Assembly (NCBI GenBank): GCA_029263395.1
Contig: JAJCXO010000282.1
Coordinates: 1-64,000 of the forward strand
DNA from: Acidobacteriota bacterium
GTDB taxonomy: Bacteria > Acidobacteriota > Thermoanaerobaculia > Multivoradales > J023
DNA: 64,000 nucleotides
Reading direction: 5' to 3'
Part shown: positions 293 to 11,328 of the stretch, one piece after another
Layout: each line of letters begins with the position of its first letter
How positions within the stretch are numbered: position 1 is the stretch's first letter
Translations under genes and position numbers: made by a program
The notes under the pieces: model-generated
What the model was told of the DNA's origin: nothing
Database searches by the model: none
Seen by the model: only the letters and a program-made list of their open reading frames with translations

Positions 293-1765
293 CTAAACGA
301 ACCTCAAGCCGCCAGCGACGGCAAGCCGACGCTCACGCGAGAAAGACCGCGGCCGGGTCATACCCTCGCCGCTCGGACTGGCGATCGAAAACGACGTGTA
401 GCCTTCGCCTCCTTGTCCGAGTCCCGCCAGGTTGGGACCGTTGGCGGTGAAGATCGAGACGTTGATAGCCCGCGCCATTTTGGTAATGGTGTCGACATTG
501 CGGGTGTAGATCGACGCGGTATGTCCAAAATGATGCTCGGCACGGATCGCCAGGTCGATCGCCAACTCGACGTTGGCCACCCGACAGACAGGCATGACCG
601 GCATCATCTGCTCGGTCCACACCAAGCTGTGATGGGTCGGCACTGGCACCACCGCCAAACGAGTGTCGGCACTGGCTGGGATGCCGATCTCTTGCAGGAT
701 CAAACCCGCATTTTTGCCGATCCACTTGGGATTGATCTTGCCCGGCTTGTTGGGCTCACCAAGCTGCTTGAAGATTGTCTTCTCGAGCGCTGGCAACTTG
801 CTTTCGTCGACCAACACCGCACCATGAGCCACCATCGACTCGATCAATCGGTCGGCGATTGACGCGACCGCGATGACCTCTTTTTCGTCGGTGCAAATGA
901 TGTTGTTGTCGAACGAAGCACCGCGCACGATCTCGCGGCCAGCAAGCTCGAGGTCAGCGGTCTCGTCAACCACTACCGGTGGATTGCCGGGACCCGCGGT
1001 GATCGCCCGTTTATGAGTCGCCAAGGCCGCCTTGACCACTCCGGGCCCCCCGGTCACCAGCAGCAGGCGTGCCTTGGGATGGACCATCAACTCACGGGCA
1101 GTCTCCAACGTAGGCTCGGGAATGCAGGTCACCAAATTCGGCGGGCCGCCGGCGTCGAGGACACAACGGTTGAGAATCCGAACCGTTTCGACCGACACCT
1201 TCTTGGCACTGGGATGAACGTTGAACACCAGCCCGTTGCCTGCAGACAGCACCGCAATGGTGTTGTTGATAACCGTCGCGGTTGGGTTGGTGGTCGGCGT
1301 AATCGCCCCAACCACCCCAAAAGGCGCCCACTCAGTCACCGTCAGGCCACGGTCTCCAGACCAGGTCCGCGGTTCGAGATCTTCGGGCCCTGGCGTTTTG
1401 TTGGTCACCAACAAATTCTTGAGCAGCTTGTCCTCGGGCCGGCCGAGGCCGGTCTCCTCCCAGGCATGCCTCGCCAGCTGCTCGGCATGCTCGCGCATCG
1501 CCTCACGAATACGATCGATGACCGTAAAACGTCGATCCAGCCCCATCTCCAGGTACTGCTGATAAGCATCCCAGGCAGCATTCACCGCCTGATCGATGGT
1601 CGGAAAGATGCCGTCGCCACCTCCAGCTACCACCGCTGGCGACGACCCTGCCGGCGCACTCGTCGGGGCCTTCGCCGCCGCGGTAGGCATCACGACAGGA
1701 CGACCGTCCCCGACTCGGCCACGCACCCTTTGCAGGATGGATTGGACTTCTTGATCTCGGATCAT
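293..1765 (-). CDS. BMC-associated CoA-acylating aldehyde dehydrogenase (EutE/PduP family)
   Basis: Oxidises an aldehyde to the acyl-CoA with NAD+ inside the microcompartment lumen. The 490-residue protein has the aldehyde dehydrogenase superfamily fold of EutE/PduP. The catalytic Cys is about residue 291 in the FDNNIICTDEKE motif, and the substrate/cofactor segment FGVVGAITPTTNP is near 149-161. Residues 1-20 form an amphipathic helix (IRDQEVQSILQRVRGRV), then a Pro/Ala-rich linker to about residue 50: the typical layout of an encapsulation peptide. It lies between a vertex protein and a BMC-T gene, so the signature aldehyde is processed in the shell. With DeoC next door the likely substrate is acetaldehyde and the product acetyl-CoA (inference). 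The ATG start has only a weak ribosome binding site, suggesting coupling to upstream genes. Confidence 0.95.
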   Translation of the reverse strand: MIRDQEVQSILQRVRGRVGDGRPVVMPTAAAKAPTSAPAGSSPAVVAGGGDGIFPTIDQAVNAAWDAYQQYLEMGLDRRFTVIDRIREAMREHAEQLARHAWEETGLGRPEDKLLKNLLVTNKTPGPEDLEPRTWSGDRGLTVTEWAPFGVVGAITPTTNPTATVINNTIAVLSAGNGLVFNVHPSAKKVSVETVRILNRCVLDAGGPPNLVTCIPEPTLETARELMVHPKARLLLVTGGPGVVKAALATHKRAITAGPGNPPVVVDETADLELAGREIVRGASFDNNIICTDEKEVIAVASIADRLIESMVAHGAVLVDESKLPALEKTIFKQLGEPNKPGKINPKWIGKNAGLILQEIGIPASADTRLAVVPVPTHHSLVWTEQMMPVMPVCRVANVELAIDLAIRAEHHFGHTASIYTRNVDTITKMARAINVSIFTANGPNLAGLGQGGEGYTSFSIASPSGEGMTRPRSFSRERRLAVAGGLRFV

Positions 1766-1781
1766 AGGTTATCCAAGAACC

Positions 1782-2096
1782 TCAACTCGCCCACTCGCCG
1801 TCGGCATCCGTCTTGCGGTAGATCTCGTCACCGCCGACATCCCAGGAGTCGACGATCGCCATGATCACCGCGTCGCACGGACGATCGCGGGTTGCCTCGG
1901 TTTGCCTGGCCGAGCTGCCGGAGGCATAAAGAACCATCTCGCCTTCACCAGCGCCCACACTGTCGACCGCGACGACAAAACCGCTGGCATCGTCGCCATC
2001 CACCGACACATTACGCACCAAAAGGAGCTTCTGCCCGAGCAGTCCTTCGTCTTTGCGGTTGGCTACCAGGGTGCCGACGACACGTCCGAGGATCAT
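1782..2096 (-). CDS. BMC pentameric vertex protein (EutN/CcmL family)
   Basis: A 104-residue BMC-P protein that caps the vertices of the polyhedral shell as a pentamer. It begins with the family hallmark [15 protein letters not shown] and carries [11 protein letters not shown], the [20 protein letters not shown] loop and a C-terminal segment [13 protein letters not shown], all as in EutN/CcmL. Its ATG overlaps the TGA of the upstream BMC-H gene by one base (TGATG), so translation is probably coupled. Only one vertex gene is seen here; related loci often carry up to three, so others may lie outside the window. Confidence 0.95.
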
Positions 2097-2392
2097 CAGC
2101 CCTTGCCCGTCTCCGCCTGGCGGCCGAGCGGCAGCACGTCGTCGACATTACCGTGGGGACGTGCGATGACGTGGGTCGAAACCACTTCACCAACACGTTC
2201 GGCGCCACGTACACCAGCCTCGATGGCGGCCTTGACCGCGGCCACATCGCCGCGAACCACCGCGGTCACATACCCACCACCGATCCGCTCGTGACCTACC
2301 AACTCTACTTTGGCGGCCTTCACCATCGCGTCGGACGCTTCGACCATGGCGGCAAAGCCACGGGTCTCGATCATGCCAAGTGCATCTGCCAT
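2096..2392 (-). CDS. BMC hexameric shell protein (PduA/EutM type)
   Basis: The main facet tile of the microcompartment: a 98-residue single BMC domain that forms hexamers with a central pore. It starts [19 protein letters not shown] and continues with [14 protein letters not shown]-type and [19 protein letters not shown] segments typical of PduA/EutM/CcmK. The short C-terminal tail ([12 protein letters not shown]) is usual. A good AAGGAG lies nine bases before the ATG, and the 48-base space from the upstream gene is the widest in the operon. That fits the high synthesis rate needed for the most abundant shell protein (inference). Confidence 0.96.
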
Positions 2393-2440: not shown

Positions 2441-3073
2441 TTAGGATTTTTCTTCTGTGCGGCCTTCCAGGCCTTCGATCGCCGCCTCCGCAGCTCGCCA
2501 CCCGACATCGATGTCCTGCTCCTCACCGCCGAGGTAAATACGGCCCATCGAGCCATGCGCCTGGACCTCCAGAATGTTGACGTCCGCTGCCTTTTCAGCC
2601 TCATTGGCCGCCAGGGCCGCGTAGGCTGCAGGCTCGACTTCCAAGGTGTAGAGGGTTTGGCCAGTAAGGATCATCTGGCCGTGACGCACCCGATTGATCA
2701 GCTGTGCCTGATGACCGGAGATTGCTCGCACCACCTGGCTAGAGAGAATCTTCGGCTTGCGACGGTCGAGTTCCGTCAGCTCGAGCTCACGCAAGATCGC
2801 CTCACCGGCGGCGCGGGTTTCGGCCTGGGAATGCGAGTGAATCTCGAGTAACCCATAAAAGCGCTCGACAATCTGCAAGCCAGGGCGGACATCGGTCGAC
2901 TTGAGGGCGATGTCCGTCAGACGATTGATCTCGATACCCGGCGAGATCTCAACAAACAGCGAGGCATCATAAGCCAGGGGCATAAAACCCTTGGCAACGG
3001 TCCCCAGGAAGGCTGCGTACTGTGGTTGAAGACTGTCAAGAAACACGAAAGATCTGAGGTCAATACGACTCAC
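2441..3073 (-). CDS. BMC tandem-domain trimeric shell protein (BMC-T, double BMC)
   Basis: A 210-residue protein with two fused BMC domains, roughly residues 1-105 and 110-205; such proteins trimerise into a pseudohexamer. Recognisable segments are [20 protein letters not shown] in the first half and [20 protein letters not shown] plus [20 protein letters not shown] in the second. It resembles the tandem BMC-T proteins of Haliangium-type and CsoS1D-like shells, some of which stack and have a gated pore; gating cannot be judged here. The start is a GTG at 3073 with a strong AAGGAGG eight bases upstream, inside the 3' end of deoC, so the genes overlap by 14 bases. Confidence 0.9.
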
Positions 3074-3974
3074 TCGACTGTCCTCCTTGGACCATCTGTA
3101 CTCCGGCTGAAGCGCCGATACGGGTCGCCCCAGCGGCGATCATTTGTTGAGCTTCCTCTGCATTCTTGATGCCGCCCGAGGCCTTGACACCCATTTTCGG
3201 TCCAATCGTCTCGCGCATCAACGTAATGTCGAACACTGTCGCACCACCACCACCAAAGCCGGTTGACGTTTTGACGTAGTGAGCTTTGGCAAGTTGTGCC
3301 AGGCGGCTAGCAATAACTTTTTCTTCGTCGCTGAGCAGCACCGTCTCGAGAATCACCTTGTTGAGGGCGCCCACTTCGCGACAGGCTTCCGAGACGCCTG
3401 CAATATCGCGCCGCACCAACTCGTGGTCGCCACTCTTGAGGGCACCAACATTGAGCACCATATCGATCTCGCGGGCACCGTCACGCAATGCGCGCCGCGC
3501 CTCGAGTGCTTTGATCTCCGGCAGCGAGGCGCCGAGCGGGAAACCGATCACCGACGCCACCTTGACGCCGGTACCACGCAGATGACCAGCGGCCCGTTTG
3601 ACCCACACCGGATTGACGCAAACCGCCGCAAACCGATGCTCCACCGCCTCGGCACACAGATGGTCAATCTGGTCGGCCGTGGCCGCTGGCTTGAGCAGAG
3701 TGTGATCGATGTACTTCGCCAGGTCGCCCGGCACGTCGGCTCCACAGCCGCCATAGGCCACCCGGGATGCACCGGCGGCTACCATGTCGCGCACCTTGCC
3801 GGTGCAGTTGGCGACACAGTTGCCCACACATTCGGCACAAACCTGATCTAGTTGGTGAACGCCGGAGGACTTGTTTCCCGCTGCCACGTTACCCTGAGGG
3901 CCGCCACCTCCGGTCATCAGCGCTTGCAGTACCTTTTGGGTGACCGTCTCGACGATGTGCTCACGATCGCTCAT
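3060..3974 (-). CDS. deoC: BMC-associated deoxyribose-phosphate aldolase with N-terminal Cys-rich extension
   Basis: Cleaves 2-deoxy-D-ribose-5-phosphate to glyceraldehyde-3-phosphate and acetaldehyde. The class I aldolase core (about residues 84-295) has the Schiff-base lysine K235 in YVKTSTGFG, the proton-relay residues D171 ([10 protein letters not shown]) and K264 (GVKASGGIK), and the VIGFPLGAS signature. The protein is 304 residues, about 80 longer at the N-terminus than typical short DeoC. Residues 3-21 form a predicted encapsulation helix, and residues 46-77 carry Cys 46, 49, 53, 57 and 77 ([12 protein letters not shown] then GGCG). That cluster could bind a metal or Fe-S centre, which is inference. 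The ATG is three bases after the rpiB stop. It supplies the aldehyde for the dehydrogenase of this operon. Confidence 0.95.
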
Positions 3975-3977
3975 GGC

Positions 3978-4538
3978 TTAGGCTTTCAGGTATCTCCGTT
4001 CAACTGCGGTGATCTTGTCGACTCGGCTCTGATGGCGACCGGTACCCCAAGGGGTTTCGAGCCAAGTCTGCACAATCTGCTTGGCAAGACCCTCGCCAAT
4101 CAACCCTGACCCCAGAGTGAGGACGTTGGCTAGATTGTGTTCCCGACTGTTCCGTGCCGAAGATAGATCGTAGCAGAGAGCGGCACGAACACCAGGCACC
4201 TTGTTGGCGACCATAGACGAACCGATGCCGGCACCATCCACGACGATCCCCCACTGGCACTCGCCGACGCTCACCCGCCGTGCCACCTCGTGGGCAAAGT
4301 CAGGGTAGTCGACCGAGTCCGTGCTCGAAGTACCACAGTCGCAGACACCGTACCCAAGGTTGTCGAGCCAACCCGCCAGTTTCTGTTTCAAGGGATAACC
4401 GCCGTGGTCGGCACCGATGGCGACGCACACCCCAGGGCTAGGCGTTGCTGAGGTCTGGGACGAAGACGCCGTCTCGTCGCCGTCCATTTCCTTCAACACC
4501 TGTCTAACCAGGCTACGGATCTCTTCTTGATTGGCCAT
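3978..4538 (-). CDS. rpiB: BMC-associated ribose-5-phosphate isomerase B homologue with Asp at the catalytic Cys position
   Basis: First gene of the visible microcompartment operon. RpiB/LacAB-family enzymes interconvert aldose- and ketose-5-phosphates. The core starts at about residue 38 (VCVAIGADHGGYPLKQKL) and contains the conserved SREHNLANVL and GGRHQ-like (GTGRHQSRVD) segments. The usual ICGTGIG catalytic-Cys loop reads VVDGAGIG, with Asp at the Cys position; the mycobacterial alternative Glu a few residues later is also absent (Ser). Residues 2-20 (ANQEEIRSLVRQVLKEMDG) form a predicted encapsulation helix followed by a Ser/Thr linker. I chose the ATG at 4538 over the GTG one codon upstream; both have weak ribosome binding sites. 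The true substrate may differ from ribose-5-phosphate. Confidence 0.88.
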   Translation of the reverse strand: MANQEEIRSLVRQVLKEMDGDETASSSQTSATPSPGVCVAIGADHGGYPLKQKLAGWLDNLGYGVCDCGTSSTDSVDYPDFAHEVARRVSVGECQWGIVVDGAGIGSSMVANKVPGVRAALCYDLSSARNSREHNLANVLTLGSGLIGEGLAKQIVQTWLETPWGTGRHQSRVDKITAVERRYLKA

Positions 4539-6800: not shown

Positions 6801-6847
6801 CTGGTTGCAGGACTAGCGAGTTTCACCCACTAGTCATCAACGGTCGA

Positions 6848-9800
6848 TCAGCCGAACAGACTATCCAGATATGAAACCGTCCCGGCAACCCAGGCTGCGG
6901 CGGATTCCAACAGGCTCGTCGAACCGACGGCGCTTAGATCTTTGGGATCCTTGCTGTCGGAGTCGCCTTCGCTGTCACCATCTGAATCGCTGTCGCTATC
7001 CGAATCGCTGTCGCTATCCGAATCGCTGTCGCTATCCGAATCGCTGTCGCTATCCGAATCGCTGTCGCTGTCTTCGTCATCGTCATCGACCCAGTTTCGC
7101 ATCACGCCGATGCTGCAACCGAACCTGACGTGTCCTAGGCCAAGACCTTCTTCCTCGATGATCTGCTCACAAGAGCAACCACGGGTGTCTTGGATGGTGA
7201 ACACGTCCGGCCCATTAACAGTGTCGAAAATGCCATCCCCATCGACTAGTGCGTAACGTTTGCCCTTGAGAAAGAACGTCGGTACGCCTTCGGGAATCAC
7301 GGTATCGGGACACTCGTCGTCGACGTCGAGCACGCCGTCACCATCGGTATCGTCTTCTTGGGGCTCTTCTTCCACCACCAAGGTCGCCGATGCCGATCCG
7401 GCCACCGAGTTGCCGTCGCGGAACAGATCCGACGTGGTGTTGACATAGCTCCCGGGGGTGGCGGTCGCAGGCACCATCACATCCACGTTGAAGGTACAGG
7501 AGCCACCAGGCAACACCGAGCCATCGGTGAGCGCCAACGTCGACGTGCCACTGAGGGTCGAGCCCGATCCACAGACATCCGATGCCGGAAGGCCGGTGGC
7601 CACAGCACCGCTGAGCATGGCATCGAGATCATCGAGAAAACTCAATCGACCGAGACTCTGAGACTGACTCAGGTTCTGGATGGTGAATGAGAGCACCCCG
7701 GTCTGCCCCTGGACGATCGGGCCGGCAAAAGACTTGCTGAAGGTCAAGAAGTCGACCAGCAAGCTGTCAGTGGCCGGGGGCCCGGTGACAATCGCCATAC
7801 CCCCGACCGCGCCTGATACCGAACTCGTAACGTTGGTGGCTTCGGTTCCCAACTCGACCGCAGCCGGGACCGATAGTGCCACGTCAAAGCTGCAAGACTC
7901 GCCGACACCCAGGGTACCGCCGGTGAAAGTGATCACGTCGGTTCCCGCAACCGTGCCGCCGCAGGCGGTGACCGGTAAGCCAGTCGCGACCAAGCCAGCA
8001 AGTGCCGCGTCTAGATCGTCGCTGAACGCAACATCGGTGACTCCGAGCAACGTGTTTTGGTTGCTGACTGTGAATCGCAGATTCACTGTGCCACCAGGCG
8101 CGACTGGATCATCCGTGAATTCTTTGGTCAGCGAGAGGATGTCCGCTTCGACGACCAAGTCGTCGCGTGCGTTCGGAAACGCGATCACTTGGCCATCGAG
8201 CGTGGCGAAGAAGTTCTCAGTTCGATTGACATAGGTCCCAGTTTCAACCGCGGCCGGCACCTGGAGAGCAACGTCGAAGCTGCAACTCGTACCAGCAGCT
8301 ACCGATCCATCGACAAGAATCAGCAGGCTATCGGCAGACAAGCCAATCAGCTGAGAGCCGACGCCACAGACATCGGTAAGCGGTAACCCGGTTGCCACCA
8401 ATCCATTGAGCGCAACGGCCAAATCATCGCGGAAGCTGATCGCGGTGGCGTCAGAGCTCGGGCTCAGGTTGTCGACGGTGAACCGCAGATTGACCGTGCC
8501 ACCGGGCAGCACTGGATCGTCGGTGAACTCCTTCGTCAGGGTCACGCCGACGATATCGAGCGTGTCCGAGGTACCCTGCCTCATCGTCGCAACGCCTGCT
8601 ACCGTTGCCACCAGACTGCTGGTGGTGTTGATGTGTGGGCCGGGCGCCGCGGTCGCCGGAACCTGCAGCGTGACACTGAAGGTGCAGGTTTCGCCAATTG
8701 CTAAATTGCCGCCCGTCAACAACAAGGTTGTCGTGCCATCGAACACTGAGCCGGCTCCACACACATCGTTGGCGGGAAGGCCGATGGCGGTCAGCCCAGC
8801 CAGAGTGGCCGAGAGATCGTCGGTGAAGGTGATGTCGGTTGCCTCTCCCACCGCCTCTTCGCCGTGGATCAGAGTAAACGACAATGTGACGGTGTCGCCA
8901 GCTTGAACCGGATCGTCGGTGAACAGTTTTCTGAAGGCCGGCGGGCCAGCAATTTGTAGATCGTCACTCGCCGGACCGCTGGTCGAGACCACCCCGTCGA
9001 CGGTTGCTGTTACATCGCTGGTGGTGTTGATCACGGTACCGCCACCGGCGCCTTCGTCGATGTCCAAGGTGACAGCAAAGGTACACGACGCTCCCGGCGC
9101 CAGGCTAGCGTTCAACACCACCAAAGTCTGCACACCCAAGACATTGGTCTGGATCGCCTGCGAGCCAGCGCCACAGAAGCCGCCGGCAGGCAAGACCGAA
9201 ATCGCCGATATGTCGAAATCGAAGGGGTCTTCGAACGTGATATCGGTTGCGGTTGAGGTCGCACTGACACTGGTCAACGTGTACTCGAGAATTACCGAAG
9301 ACCCTGCGCCCACCGGATCGCCGATAAAGGTCTGCGTCAAGAGCGGCGCAGCGCTGACGAAAAGCAAGTCCGAAGCCGGACTACCCGTTGTGAGACGACC
9401 GTCGATATCGGCAGTGATATCGCTGGTGGTGTTGGCGTAGGCTCCTGGGGCGGCAGCGGATGGCACCGTCAGTTGCACGCTGAACGTACAAGTCTGTTCG
9501 ATACCGACGCTACCAGCTGTGAAGGTGAGGAAATTTGTACCACTCAACGACGAACCGGAACCACAGACGTCGTTGGCAGGAAGACCGATTGCCTCGAGAC
9601 CCGCCAGGGTCGCCGTCAAATCATCCGTGAACGCAATGCTGGTCGCTGGAAAGCTGCGATCCAGGTTGCGGACGGTAAATTCGAGTGTCACCGTGCCGCC
9701 GGGAGCCACCGGATCATCTGAGAAGCTCTTCTCCAAAGCGATCCGCTCGACAGTTACGTTGAGCACCGCGCTGGCTTTGCCGCTCGACATGGGTGAGGGG

Positions 9801-10615
9801 TTAGGCAGGATGATGCCGGTCAAGTCTCCCGTCGTATTCCCGATCAAGCCGATCGAAGTACCCACCACGTCAACCGAGATCGAACAGCTCGCGCCCGCAG
9901 CCACCGACGCGTCACCACCAAACATTGGCGCGTAGGAAATTGTGCTGGATCCCGCCACCGCAGTGATGTTGCCACCGTTGCAATCTGTCGATGCGTTGGC
10001 TGGCGACGCGACCTCCATCCCTGACGGCAGATTGTCCGTGAAGGTCAGGCTGAGTGCAGAGGCAGCGTTGGCAGTATTGTCGATCGTGAACGTCAGAACA
10101 CTGCGGCCACCGAGTAGCACAGTACTCGGCGAAAAGCTCTTGCTGAACCCAGGGCGCCCCGTATCGACGGTTAAGTCGGCGCTGGCAGGTCCGCTGTTGC
10201 CGGCATCCGAGGTCAGGTCACCGGTGACGTTGGAACTGACGCCGACGGTGCTGGACGTGACGTCCACGGTGATCGAACACGAGCCGCCGCCCGGCACTCC
10301 ACCGCCAACCAACGAGATATTGCTGCCACCGTCTGGAGCGGTCACCGTACCGAAACAGTTCGATTCGACATTGGCCGGCGCGGCGATGGTCATGCCGGCC
10401 GGCAGGTTGTCGACGAACGCGACGTTCCGAGCCCCGATGGCATTGCCGTTGGTGATATCGAAACGCAGAGTGGTAACACTACCCGGACCGATCGTGGCAG
10501 GCTGAAAAGACTTACTGAACGTCGGTTGTGCGCTGGCTGGCACCGCCGAGACAACGGCGGCAAACAAAGATGCCGCAAGGAGCTTCCTGGGATTGATGGA
10601 CCAGATGTCGTTCAT
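6848..10615 (-). CDS. Giant secreted Ig-like repeat protein with calcium motif and Asp/Ser run
   Basis: Secreted protein of 1255 residues of unknown function, probably a surface or matrix adhesin (inference). I chose the ATG at 10615, not the longer frame, because AAAGGA lies eight bases upstream and a signal peptide follows (LLAASLFAAVVSAVPASAQ). Then come eight DUF11/DUF7933-like repeats of about 125 residues. Each opens with an FxKxFxDDPVxPGGTV-like strand, has a FTDDL motif and a conserved pair of Cys (DVCGSGS and CTFSV). Next are a thrombospondin type 3-like motif (DTDGDGVLDVDDECPDT), a segment with GCSC and FGCSIGVM, and an uninterrupted Asp-Ser run of about 36 residues coded by an 18-bp DNA repeat. 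It ends in a hydrophobic segment SAAAWVAGTVSYLDSLFG. No sortase or PEP-CTERM signal is recognisable. Confidence 0.85.
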   Translation of the reverse strand: MNDIWSINPRKLLAASLFAAVVSAVPASAQPTFSKSFQPATIGPGSVTTLRFDITNGNAIGARNVAFVDNLPAGMTIAAPANVESNCFGTVTAPDGGSNISLVGGGVPGGGSCSITVDVTSSTVGVSSNVTGDLTSDAGNSGPASADLTVDTGRPGFSKSFSPSTVLLGGRSVLTFTIDNTANAASALSLTFTDNLPSGMEVASPANASTDCNGGNITAVAGSSTISYAPMFGGDASVAAGASCSISVDVVGTSIGLIGNTTGDLTGIILPNPSPMSSGKASAVLNVTVERIALEKSFSDDPVAPGGTVTLEFTVRNLDRSFPATSIAFTDDLTATLAGLEAIGLPANDVCGSGSSLSGTNFLTFTAGSVGIEQTCTFSVQLTVPSAAAPGAYANTTSDITADIDGRLTTGSPASDLLFVSAAPLLTQTFIGDPVGAGSSVILEYTLTSVSATSTATDITFEDPFDFDISAISVLPAGGFCGAGSQAIQTNVLGVQTLVVLNASLAPGASCTFAVTLDIDEGAGGGTVINTTSDVTATVDGVVSTSGPASDDLQIAGPPAFRKLFTDDPVQAGDTVTLSFTLIHGEEAVGEATDITFTDDLSATLAGLTAIGLPANDVCGAGSVFDGTTTLLLTGGNLAIGETCTFSVTLQVPATAAPGPHINTTSSLVATVAGVATMRQGTSDTLDIVGVTLTKEFTDDPVLPGGTVNLRFTVDNLSPSSDATAISFRDDLAVALNGLVATGLPLTDVCGVGSQLIGLSADSLLILVDGSVAAGTSCSFDVALQVPAAVETGTYVNRTENFFATLDGQVIAFPNARDDLVVEADILSLTKEFTDDPVAPGGTVNLRFTVSNQNTLLGVTDVAFSDDLDAALAGLVATGLPVTACGGTVAGTDVITFTGGTLGVGESCSFDVALSVPAAVELGTEATNVTSSVSGAVGGMAIVTGPPATDSLLVDFLTFSKSFAGPIVQGQTGVLSFTIQNLSQSQSLGRLSFLDDLDAMLSGAVATGLPASDVCGSGSTLSGTSTLALTDGSVLPGGSCTFNVDVMVPATATPGSYVNTTSDLFRDGNSVAGSASATLVVEEEPQEDDTDGDGVLDVDDECPDTVIPEGVPTFFLKGKRYALVDGDGIFDTVNGPDVFTIQDTRGCSCEQIIEEEGLGLGHVRFGCSIGVMRNWVDDDDEDSDSDSDSDSDSDSDSDSDSDSDSDSDSDSDGDSEGDSDSKDPKDLSAVGSTSLLESAAAWVAGTVSYLDSLFG
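6984..7073. repeat. 18-bp in-frame repeat coding the Asp/Ser run
   Basis: Units of GAATCGCTGTCGCTATCC start at 6984, 7002, 7020 and 7038, with a variant fifth copy at 7056-7073. On the minus strand each codes for three Asp-Ser pairs. The near identity of the units points to recent expansion and makes the length likely to vary between strains. Confidence 0.9.
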
Positions 10616-11328
10616 GCAGTGTCCTTTGGAGTGTGGGGTTTTTGAATAGCTACCGCTCGGGTGAAACGATGACAACGACAGCGAGTGGACCATTCCACGT
10701 TCGCTGCACGCCACCTTCTCGAAGCCGCCCGAGGCACACCCAAATGGGCCTAACCCCACTTCGAAAAGTTCGGCTGACACCTGTCTACTGCTGGCTGCTG
10801 ACTTCTCTCCATGTCGAGACCTCCAACAAGTCGAAGCGGTCACTTCGACTTCAATAGAGATCTATTTCGTGCTGCCGCAGGACGAGGAAAGAATGGCAGA
10901 TCATAAAAGTAACTTACCCTTACAGTATATAGAGGCCAACCCACCCCAGAGTGACGCATCCTCTTGCCAAAACCGTCGAAATATTCAACTAGAACTTAGA
11001 ATTTTAGACATACATGGAATAGCTCATTAAAGACTTTCCAAACACAGGCTATTCACTTCGCCAAAGGCTTCTTCTACCTGAAAAACCGCAGAAATGCTGC
11101 CCTCGGTTGTCAAGGCAAGGTCGCCTTCACGCTCTCCCATACCGATAGCACAATATAGATACATTTCAAATCAAATATCCCGCCGGTAGAGGCTGAGCTC
11201 CCAGGACGAGACATCCTAAAATTGATCTATGTGAATATGGGCGTTCAGAAGACTTACACCACCACCCAGATCTCCTTCGCGTCTCTCTGGGCACGATGAC
11301 TCAGGCAGCCCAAACACCTCACCAAAAA
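10616..11328. other. Long AT-rich intergenic region with no convincing gene
   Basis: About 710 bases between the start of the giant repeat protein and the stop of the outer-membrane protein gene. From about 10860 to 11230 it is visibly richer in A and T than its surroundings (for example CAGTATATAGAGG near 10922 and ACAATATAGATACATTTC near 11150). It should contain the promoter of the repeat-protein gene on the minus strand; TATACT at about 10924-10930 (minus strand) is a candidate -10, but no good -35 is seen. I see no ORF with family resemblance, no RNA gene and no terminator. Confidence 0.5.

Follow-up and report, generated by a model that had tools for sequence, protein, structure and literature searches.

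An aspartate at the catalytic base position of a DeoC-linked RpiB homologue in a microcompartment locus of an Acidobacteriota bacterium

The window analyzed here, a stretch of 64,000 nucleotides from an Acidobacteriota bacterium (GenBank assembly GCA_029263395.1, contig JAJCXO010000282.1, positions 1 to 64,000 of the forward strand), encodes on its minus strand, from an ATG at 4538 down to 3978, a 186-residue homologue of the ribose-5-phosphate isomerase RpiB (P0001) in which the catalytic cysteine is replaced by aspartate, Asp101. The gene is the first of a block that continues with the gene for the deoxyribose-phosphate aldolase DeoC and with shell genes of a bacterial microcompartment (BMC), and the same aspartate recurs in the RpiB homologues of DeoC-linked relatives. 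From these comparisons we tentatively read the protein, at a probability of roughly 0.43, as an RpiB-type pentose-5-phosphate isomerase that would use Asp101 as its base within the shell, beside DeoC.

The window protein matches PF02502 with 176.5 bits (cut-off 24.7) and passes the RpiB equivalog TIGR01120 with 153.8 bits (cut-off 138.65). Its AlphaFold model (mean predicted local distance difference test score, pLDDT, 91.3) superposes on 3he8_A with a root-mean-square deviation of 0.8 Å and a Z score of 27.8, consistent with an RpiB fold. The loop of interest, GIVVDGAGIGSSM, aligns free of gaps to gilicgtgvgisi of Escherichia coli RpiB and to givicgtglgisi of Clostridium thermocellum RpiB, which confirms the replacement reported by a sequence-only reading of the window and places Asp101 opposite the catalytic Cys66 of the E. 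coli enzyme. The number given to the residue in that reading, D102, fits a GTG one codon upstream; counted from the ATG at 4538 the residue is 101. Also borne out were its statements that the SREHNLANVL and GRHQ motifs are intact and that the mycobacterial-type glutamate is absent, Ser107 standing in the column that holds Glu in relatives of the Gly class (GGSG[NQ]GE), a column placed through the Glu of these relatives and not through the M. tuberculosis chain itself. Neither a catalytic base equivalent to Cys66 nor a Glu75 of the mycobacterial type is thus present. Residues corresponding to E. coli D9, H10, H99 and H134 are kept (D44, H45, H134 and H169 of the window protein), as are two members of the phosphate-binding set (R168 and R172, equivalent to R133 and R137); the third, R110, is replaced by Gly145, and the position of T68 is occupied by Ala103. 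An ordinary Cys-type RpiB with a VCGTGIG loop is encoded on another contig of the same genome.

To count the aspartate independently of the RpiB sequence, an alignment of 12 seed DeoCs, all from loci with an Asp-type RpiB, was searched against genome contigs and the best 80 loci, those nearest to the window's DeoC, were retained; this selection is blind to the RpiB residue, and more distant DeoC-RpiB pairs lie outside it. An RpiB match was found in 55 of the 80 loci (a 60-bit threshold dropped none), and all 55 RpiBs carry Asp; 45 are encoded separately, no more than 1 kb from deoC, and 10 are fused to DeoC. Shell genes lie within 9 kb in 41 of these 55 loci. Three of the loci could not be assigned to a phylum, and the others are distributed over 11 phyla: Chloroflexota (24), Acidobacteriota (11), Actinomycetota (5), Planctomycetota (3), Pseudomonadota (2) and Fidelibacterota (2), plus a single locus each from Bacteroidota, Gemmatimonadota, Myxococcota, Eiseniibacteriota and Fermentibacterota. 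Phyla were taken from record titles, and some labels of metagenome-assembled genomes are doubtful (the title of L135 bears both Acidimicrobiaceae and Acidobacteriota). Because every RpiB in the loci fetched through DeoC carries Asp, the residue is not a matter of chance. A chance or frame error is ruled out by the full family matches together with the recurrence of Asp in DeoC-linked relatives, and a substitution peculiar to the window by the same residue in relatives; the plus-strand frame across 3978-4538 is interrupted by stops.

The phylum of the window was surveyed in 297 genomes, 256 of which gave a match to the window protein, and the best 100 loci (L033-L132), the window's own genome left out, constitute the phylum sample. 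No RpiB of this sample is at least 97% identical to one of the DeoC-seeded sample. The stretches available for inspection measured up to 20 kb in 40 loci (including 2 of the 37 Cys or Gly loci) and 3.7 to 9 kb in the other 60; since they are short, more distant shell genes would be missed, and divergent ones may escape a search in which the window's own shell proteins served as queries. The loops fall into 63 Asp, 31 Cys and 6 Gly (the Gly/Glu class). DeoC is encoded within 1 kb or fused in 51 of the 63 Asp genes (10 fused) and in none of the 37 Cys/Gly genes (Fisher p 2.7e-17, a descriptive value only, the rows being related), and shell genes are in reach in 17 of the 63 and 0 of the 37, respectively. 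The sequence-only reading had asked whether the aspartate is conserved among BMC-associated homologues; it is, in 17/17 shell-adjacent RpiBs of the phylum sample as in the DeoC-seeded loci above. The Asp-type RpiB is linked more tightly to DeoC than to the shell genes, and the use of the aspartate as a marker of shell adjacency is weakened by the 34 of 51 DeoC-adjacent Asp loci that have no shell gene in the stretch. At the level of whole genomes, a BMC vertex gene occurs in 62 of the 63 Asp genomes as compared to 123 of the 297 genomes overall. The Asp genes are spread over 27 family codes, and in 23 of these they lie beside deoC. Three further rows of the list, one each of the Cys, Gly/Glu and Asp types, stand outside the 100-locus counts; among them DeoC is found only in the Asp stretch (G213), a genome that also has a Cys RpiB (L125) and BMC-P.

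In a tree computed without the loop columns, 59 Asp rows fall into a single group of 60 (SH-aLRT, the Shimodaira-Hasegawa-like approximate likelihood ratio test, 91). Asp thus appears to mark a clade, nearly one group in a tree that is quick, resting on 139 columns and leaving 60 of 114 inner branches open. Homologues with a Ser at the base position were seen in L294 (G001, VSGSGAV), L295 (G031, VSNSGAV) and L293 (G017, VSSSGAV), all three from genomes with RpiA.

More than the base has changed in this class. Columns were compared, in E. coli numbering, across 119 Asp rows (the window among them), 32 Cys rows and 6 Gly rows, the classes being set by the loop residue itself and hence 100% at the base column by construction. 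D9, H10, Y43, H99, N100, R133 and R137 are retained in 98-100% of the Asp rows, and H134 in 92%, with Tyr in 7%. T68, in contrast, which is Thr (56%) or Ser (43%) in Cys rows and Ser in Gly rows, is Ala in 95% of the Asp rows; position 72, which is Ile in E. coli, Met in most Cys rows and Glu in Gly rows, is Ser in 100% of them (Ser107 in the window); L95 is replaced by Asn in 89% (Asn130 in the window); and R110, Arg in 100% of the Cys and Gly rows, is Gly in 58%, Arg in 21% and Lys in 8%. In Leishmania RpiB, the Cys removes the C2 proton, Thr71 is proposed to hand the O2 proton on to O1, the ring oxygen is protonated by His102, the O1 proton is accepted by His138 and phosphate is bound by Arg113 (PMC4783025, PMC3755991). 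Residues 71, 102, 113 and 138 correspond, by alignment offsets, to E. coli 68, 99, 110 and 134. Set against these published roles, the column pattern suggests that the ring-opening part of the site has been kept in the Asp class while the part in charge of 1,2-transfer, together with one phosphate contact, has been rebuilt. The proposal in the sequence-only reading that Asp is either a third base or the sign of a changed reaction or substrate stands as regards conservation in BMC loci, but several pocket positions are altered, not one.

The features of the locus, all on the minus strand, are the following.

3978..4538: RpiB/LacAB-family protein with Asp101 replacing the catalytic Cys (PF02502, E 3.4e-52; TIGR01120)
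4215..4250: active-site loop GIVVDGAGIGSS, residues 97-108, with the Asp101 codon at 4236-4238
4482..4529: N-terminal helix (residues 4-19) in the AlphaFold model, probably an encapsulation peptide, leading into a linker of low confidence
3060..3974: the deoxyribose-phosphate aldolase DeoC, which carries a Cys-rich stretch and an N-terminal extension of its own (TIGR00126, E 3.8e-81)
2441..3073: CcmP-like BMC-T shell protein (NF053796, 330.7 bits, slightly below the cut-off of 340; PF00936, 21.2 bits, below the cut-off of 24.5)
2096..2392: BMC-H shell protein (PF00936, E 2.8e-29)
1782..2096: BMC-P (EutN/CcmL) vertex protein (PF03319, E 1.1e-27)
293..1765: metabolosome-core aldehyde dehydrogenase (PF00171; NF011927/PRK15398, 593.2 bits, cut-off 403), which we take to be EutE/PduP-like

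Read leftwards from the RpiB gene, the order is thus DeoC, CcmP-like BMC-T, BMC-H, BMC-P and aldehyde dehydrogenase. With a pfam01791 aldolase, a pfam02502 protein and an aldehyde dehydrogenase beside shell genes, this is a microcompartment locus of the sugar phosphate utilization (SPU) type, and the BMC and deoxyribose context suggested by the sequence-only reading was correct. The window's DeoC retains the KTSTGF and GVKASGG motifs and is the sole DeoC match in the genome (assembly 96% complete). The block ends after the dehydrogenase because the window begins at a contig end; in the relatives L033, L034 and L137 the locus goes on with one more BMC-H and two BMC-P (weak matches, 28 to 47 bits). 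The RpiB homologue of L137 shares 72% identity with the window protein across their aligned core. A second BMC-P of the window's genome (L299, minus strand, 6830-7102 of the 7201-base contig G000:C180) lies near a contig end and probably belongs to the distal portion of this SPU locus, cut off by a gap in the assembly, although the two contigs are not joined. Elsewhere in the window, the minus strand encodes at 6848-10843 a 1331-residue protein with KxFxDDPVxPGGTVxLxFTV-like repeated units and a long Ser-Asp repeat tract near its C-terminus, perhaps a surface protein.

The N-terminal helix of the RpiB homologue (residues 4-19) is modeled by AlphaFold with pLDDT values of 90 and 87 by block, dropping to 55 in the linker that follows, and similar N-termini were recognized by eye in RpiB and DeoC homologues; the helix is probably an encapsulation signal. 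A like N-terminus is also present in many Asp-type RpiBs located away from shell genes, where it comes with a segment ITEDDLRGL...LTPLA (L047, L053, L183, L189 and similar), and a similar stretch separates the RpiB and DeoC domains of the fusions L057 and L065. Another natural RpiB-DeoC fusion is that of L173. This segment may be a shared compartment-cargo module. In L189, the only such protein scanned against NCBIfam, it gives a weak match to the end of the ethanolamine-utilization family TIGR02536 (21.3 bits, cut-off 152.6); a Pfam scan of L047, L053 and L189 yielded a PF15953 match in L053 alone (15 bits, cut-off 27). Some copies lying outside BMC loci have neighbors in keeping with nucleoside breakdown: phosphopentomutase in L042 and L062 (NF003766, above cut-off), hypoxanthine phosphoribosyltransferase in L042 and a 5'-nucleotidase C-terminal domain in L071.

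On the reading that we favor, the Asp-type RpiB would be a paralogue residing in the microcompartment lumen and dedicated to the DeoC pathway, which would consume sugar phosphates derived from nucleosides. The N-terminal helix would carry it into the shell, His134 and His169 (E. coli His99 and His134) would open the furanose, and Asp101 would perform the C1/C2 acid-base step carried out elsewhere by Cys66 or Glu75, so that ribose-5-phosphate (or a close pentose phosphate) would be converted to ribulose-5-phosphate in the same shell in which DeoC cleaves deoxyribose-5-phosphate. A carboxylate base has a precedent in the family in Glu75 of M. tuberculosis RpiB (PMC3755991, PMC4783025), and the invariance of the aspartate speaks for real proton chemistry. 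As the carboxylate of Asp101 could also shuttle the proton between O1 and O2, Thr68 may have become dispensable, and a canonical isomerase would be retained in these genomes because a sequestered enzyme could not serve the cytosol.

A number of observations weigh against an Asp-based pentose-5-phosphate isomerase. None of the Asp genomes checked depends on the Asp copy as its sole ribose-5-phosphate isomerase. Within the phylum sample, 49 of the 63 Asp genomes have at least two RpiB matches, and in all 49 another copy is of the Cys or Gly/Glu class. The 14 genomes in which the Asp copy is the only RpiB match all have RpiA (PF06026), which is found in 49 of the 297 genomes overall and in none of the 16 fetched genomes whose one RpiB is canonical. 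All 63, like the window's own genome with its Cys RpiB, thus have a canonical enzyme besides the Asp copy, a distribution that fits a different reaction and sequestration in a shell alike. RpiA is not exclusive, since G163 and G187 combine it with a Cys RpiB, and G062 with both Asp and Cys RpiBs. Together with this genome complement, the rebuilt pocket speaks for a new substrate: the replacement of T68 by Ala (95%) and of R110 by Gly (58%) would be odd if the ribose-5-phosphate reaction were unchanged. The fusion to DeoC suggests that the Asp-type RpiB may handle DeoC's own substrate, and deoxyribose-5-phosphate, having no 2-OH, cannot undergo the isomerization catalyzed by RpiB.

The link to DeoC and to shells is incomplete. 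No RpiB match was found in the stretches examined of 25 of the best 80 DeoC-seeded loci, many of them from Bacillota. In 12 of the 63 Asp loci of the phylum sample, DeoC is not encoded in the nearest 1 kb: three loci have it within 9 kb and nine lack it in the stretch; short contigs are not the reason, because seven of the nine stretches (L037, L038, L040, L041, L045, L052 and L058) extend over 17-20 kb, the search for DeoC being confined to these stretches of the genomes. In G285 (L127; genome 98% complete), Asp-type RpiB and DeoC are adjacent while no BMC-P match is present. The sixtieth member of the Asp group in the tree is a Cys row, L254, and L291 (G031) and L292 (G001) carry another type of Asp loop (DGAGVAM/DGAGVAMS), with DeoC and shell matches absent from their ~3 kb stretches. 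As to the first two of these cases, the G285 pair may represent a shell-free use of Asp-type RpiB and DeoC, and L254 (G221:C34:3650-4060), a Cys-type RpiB domain within a 676-residue open frame, may be a reversion or a long-branch artefact.

Several of these points would be accounted for if the protein opened the furanose of 2-deoxyribose-5-phosphate for DeoC, interconverting its anomers without any 1,2-proton transfer and with Asp101 acting on O1 instead of C2, a changed substrate that we regard as the main competing reading, possible but doubtful. His99 and most of His134 are kept whereas both residues of the 1,2-transfer, C66 and T68, are replaced (roles from PMC4783025); DeoC is the usual partner and is fused to RpiB in 20 of 118 Asp loci (best 80 DeoC-seeded and best 100 phylum loci combined); the Asp genomes retain another isomerase; and genes of nucleoside metabolism lie near some copies. 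For a sugar devoid of a 2-OH, the loss of C66 and T68 would be sensible and the fusion would amount to a hand-over of substrate. It is not obvious, however, why such an enzyme would require an Asp that never varies at the base position; His134 gives way to Tyr in 7% of the Asp rows, spontaneous opening may be fast enough, and a search of the open-access literature for an enzyme of this kind gave no paper. That the whole RpiB-like clade is the deoxyribose-5-phosphate enzyme of SPU loci rather than a ribose-5-phosphate isomerase, feeding the open-chain sugar to DeoC by means of its Asp and rebuilt C1/C2 pocket, we hold to be rather unlikely.

The substrate may alternatively be another sugar, the protein turning a ketose phosphate into an aldose phosphate for the DeoC-type aldolase of SPU loci, for instance ribulose- into ribose-5-phosphate, whose cleavage would supply the aldehyde dehydrogenase with glycolaldehyde and glyceraldehyde-3-phosphate. 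While this would explain the presence of an isomerase and an aldolase in one shell as well as the altered phosphate Arg, we consider it improbable: the window's DeoC scores above the deoC equivalog cut-off and keeps the deoxyribose-phosphate aldolase motifs, and we know of no such ribose-5-phosphate cleavage activity in this aldolase family. In its favor, other family members act on other sugars (LacAB, PMC3755991), an erythrulose-4-phosphate isomerase model matches, albeit below cut-off, and in SPU-like loci of Latescibacteria a class II aldolase accompanies the RpiB-like protein (PMC4207490). Very improbable, finally, is a catalytically dead RpiB relic serving as a structural or scaffolding subunit of a DeoC core, as the LacA loop may do in LacAB. 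Replacing the Cys by Ser inactivates Leishmania RpiB, and by Ala T. cruzi RpiB (PMC4783025), and LacA has its Asp loop on the non-catalytic side; yet the other catalytic and substrate residues of the Asp class are kept near 100% across phyla, unlike in LacA, whose Asp-His motif is without its His, and a dead site would be expected to drift, whereas in the DeoC-seeded set the Asp never varies, nor does Ser107 across the 119 Asp rows.

With known RpiBs of the E. coli Cys66 and M. tuberculosis Glu75 classes, the Asp class shares the fold and D9, H10, Y43, H99, N100, R133 and R137; it differs by Asp at the base position, Ala for Thr/Ser68, Ser at 72, Asn for L95, the loss of R110 in most members, and an N-terminal extension or DeoC fusion. 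The suggestion in the sequence-only reading of a new solution in the family needs to be tempered, as an Asp in this loop position also occurs elsewhere in the superfamily, in the LacA subunit of galactose-6-phosphate isomerase (IDAYGAG). In LacA, however, the His of the Asp-His motif is missing, and the protein is the heteromeric partner of LacB; LacAB has a single active site, with the Cys contributed by LacB, and the LacA loop residue Tyr-65 lies in the vacant site (PMC3755991). We infer from this account that the Asp of LacA is idle, and LacA was rejected as a catalytic precedent. The window protein itself scores below cut-off against the lacA equivalog (88.4 bits, cut-off 181.1), and no LacB partner was found, the flanking genes belonging to other families and the only other PF02502 match of the genome lying on another contig. 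The RpiB of Coccidioides immitis resembles the Asp class in combining an RpiB fold with an altered pocket, a suspected other substrate and the presence of RpiA in the organism; it keeps Cys76, while most phosphate residues and the ring-opening His are gone, a pattern opposite to that of the Asp class (PMC3212906). It may serve as a precedent for arguing a new substrate from the pocket and the presence of RpiA.

SPU loci share with the window a DeoC aldolase, an RpiB-type protein, an aldehyde dehydrogenase and shell genes (Axen 2014, PMC4207490; Sutter 2021, PMC8217296). RpiB-type proteins have been known from them since 2014, and a fusion of aldolase and isomerase has already been reported in Marinimicrobia (PMC4207490). 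The two papers speak of an RpiB-like sugar isomerase or of an RpiB type isomerizing ribose-5-phosphate, and term searches of their main texts returned no remark on the RpiB active site. What the present analysis adds is the Asp clade and its occurrence also apart from shell genes; no report of Asp at the RpiB base position was found in searches of the open-access literature, which took in the main texts of the two BMC catalogues.

Since the exchange is common to DeoC-linked and DeoC-fused relatives across several phyla, the usual label of ribose-5-phosphate isomerase, under which the standard annotation model TIGR01120 passes the Asp protein as RpiB, calls for testing. If the reaction is the same, the family has in Asp a third catalytic base besides Cys and Glu; if the Asp clade carries out another one, the pathway drawn for the compartment changes, and should the deoxyribose-5-phosphate reading be true, this would be a ring-opening enzyme for the sugar of a nucleic acid inside a bacterial organelle.
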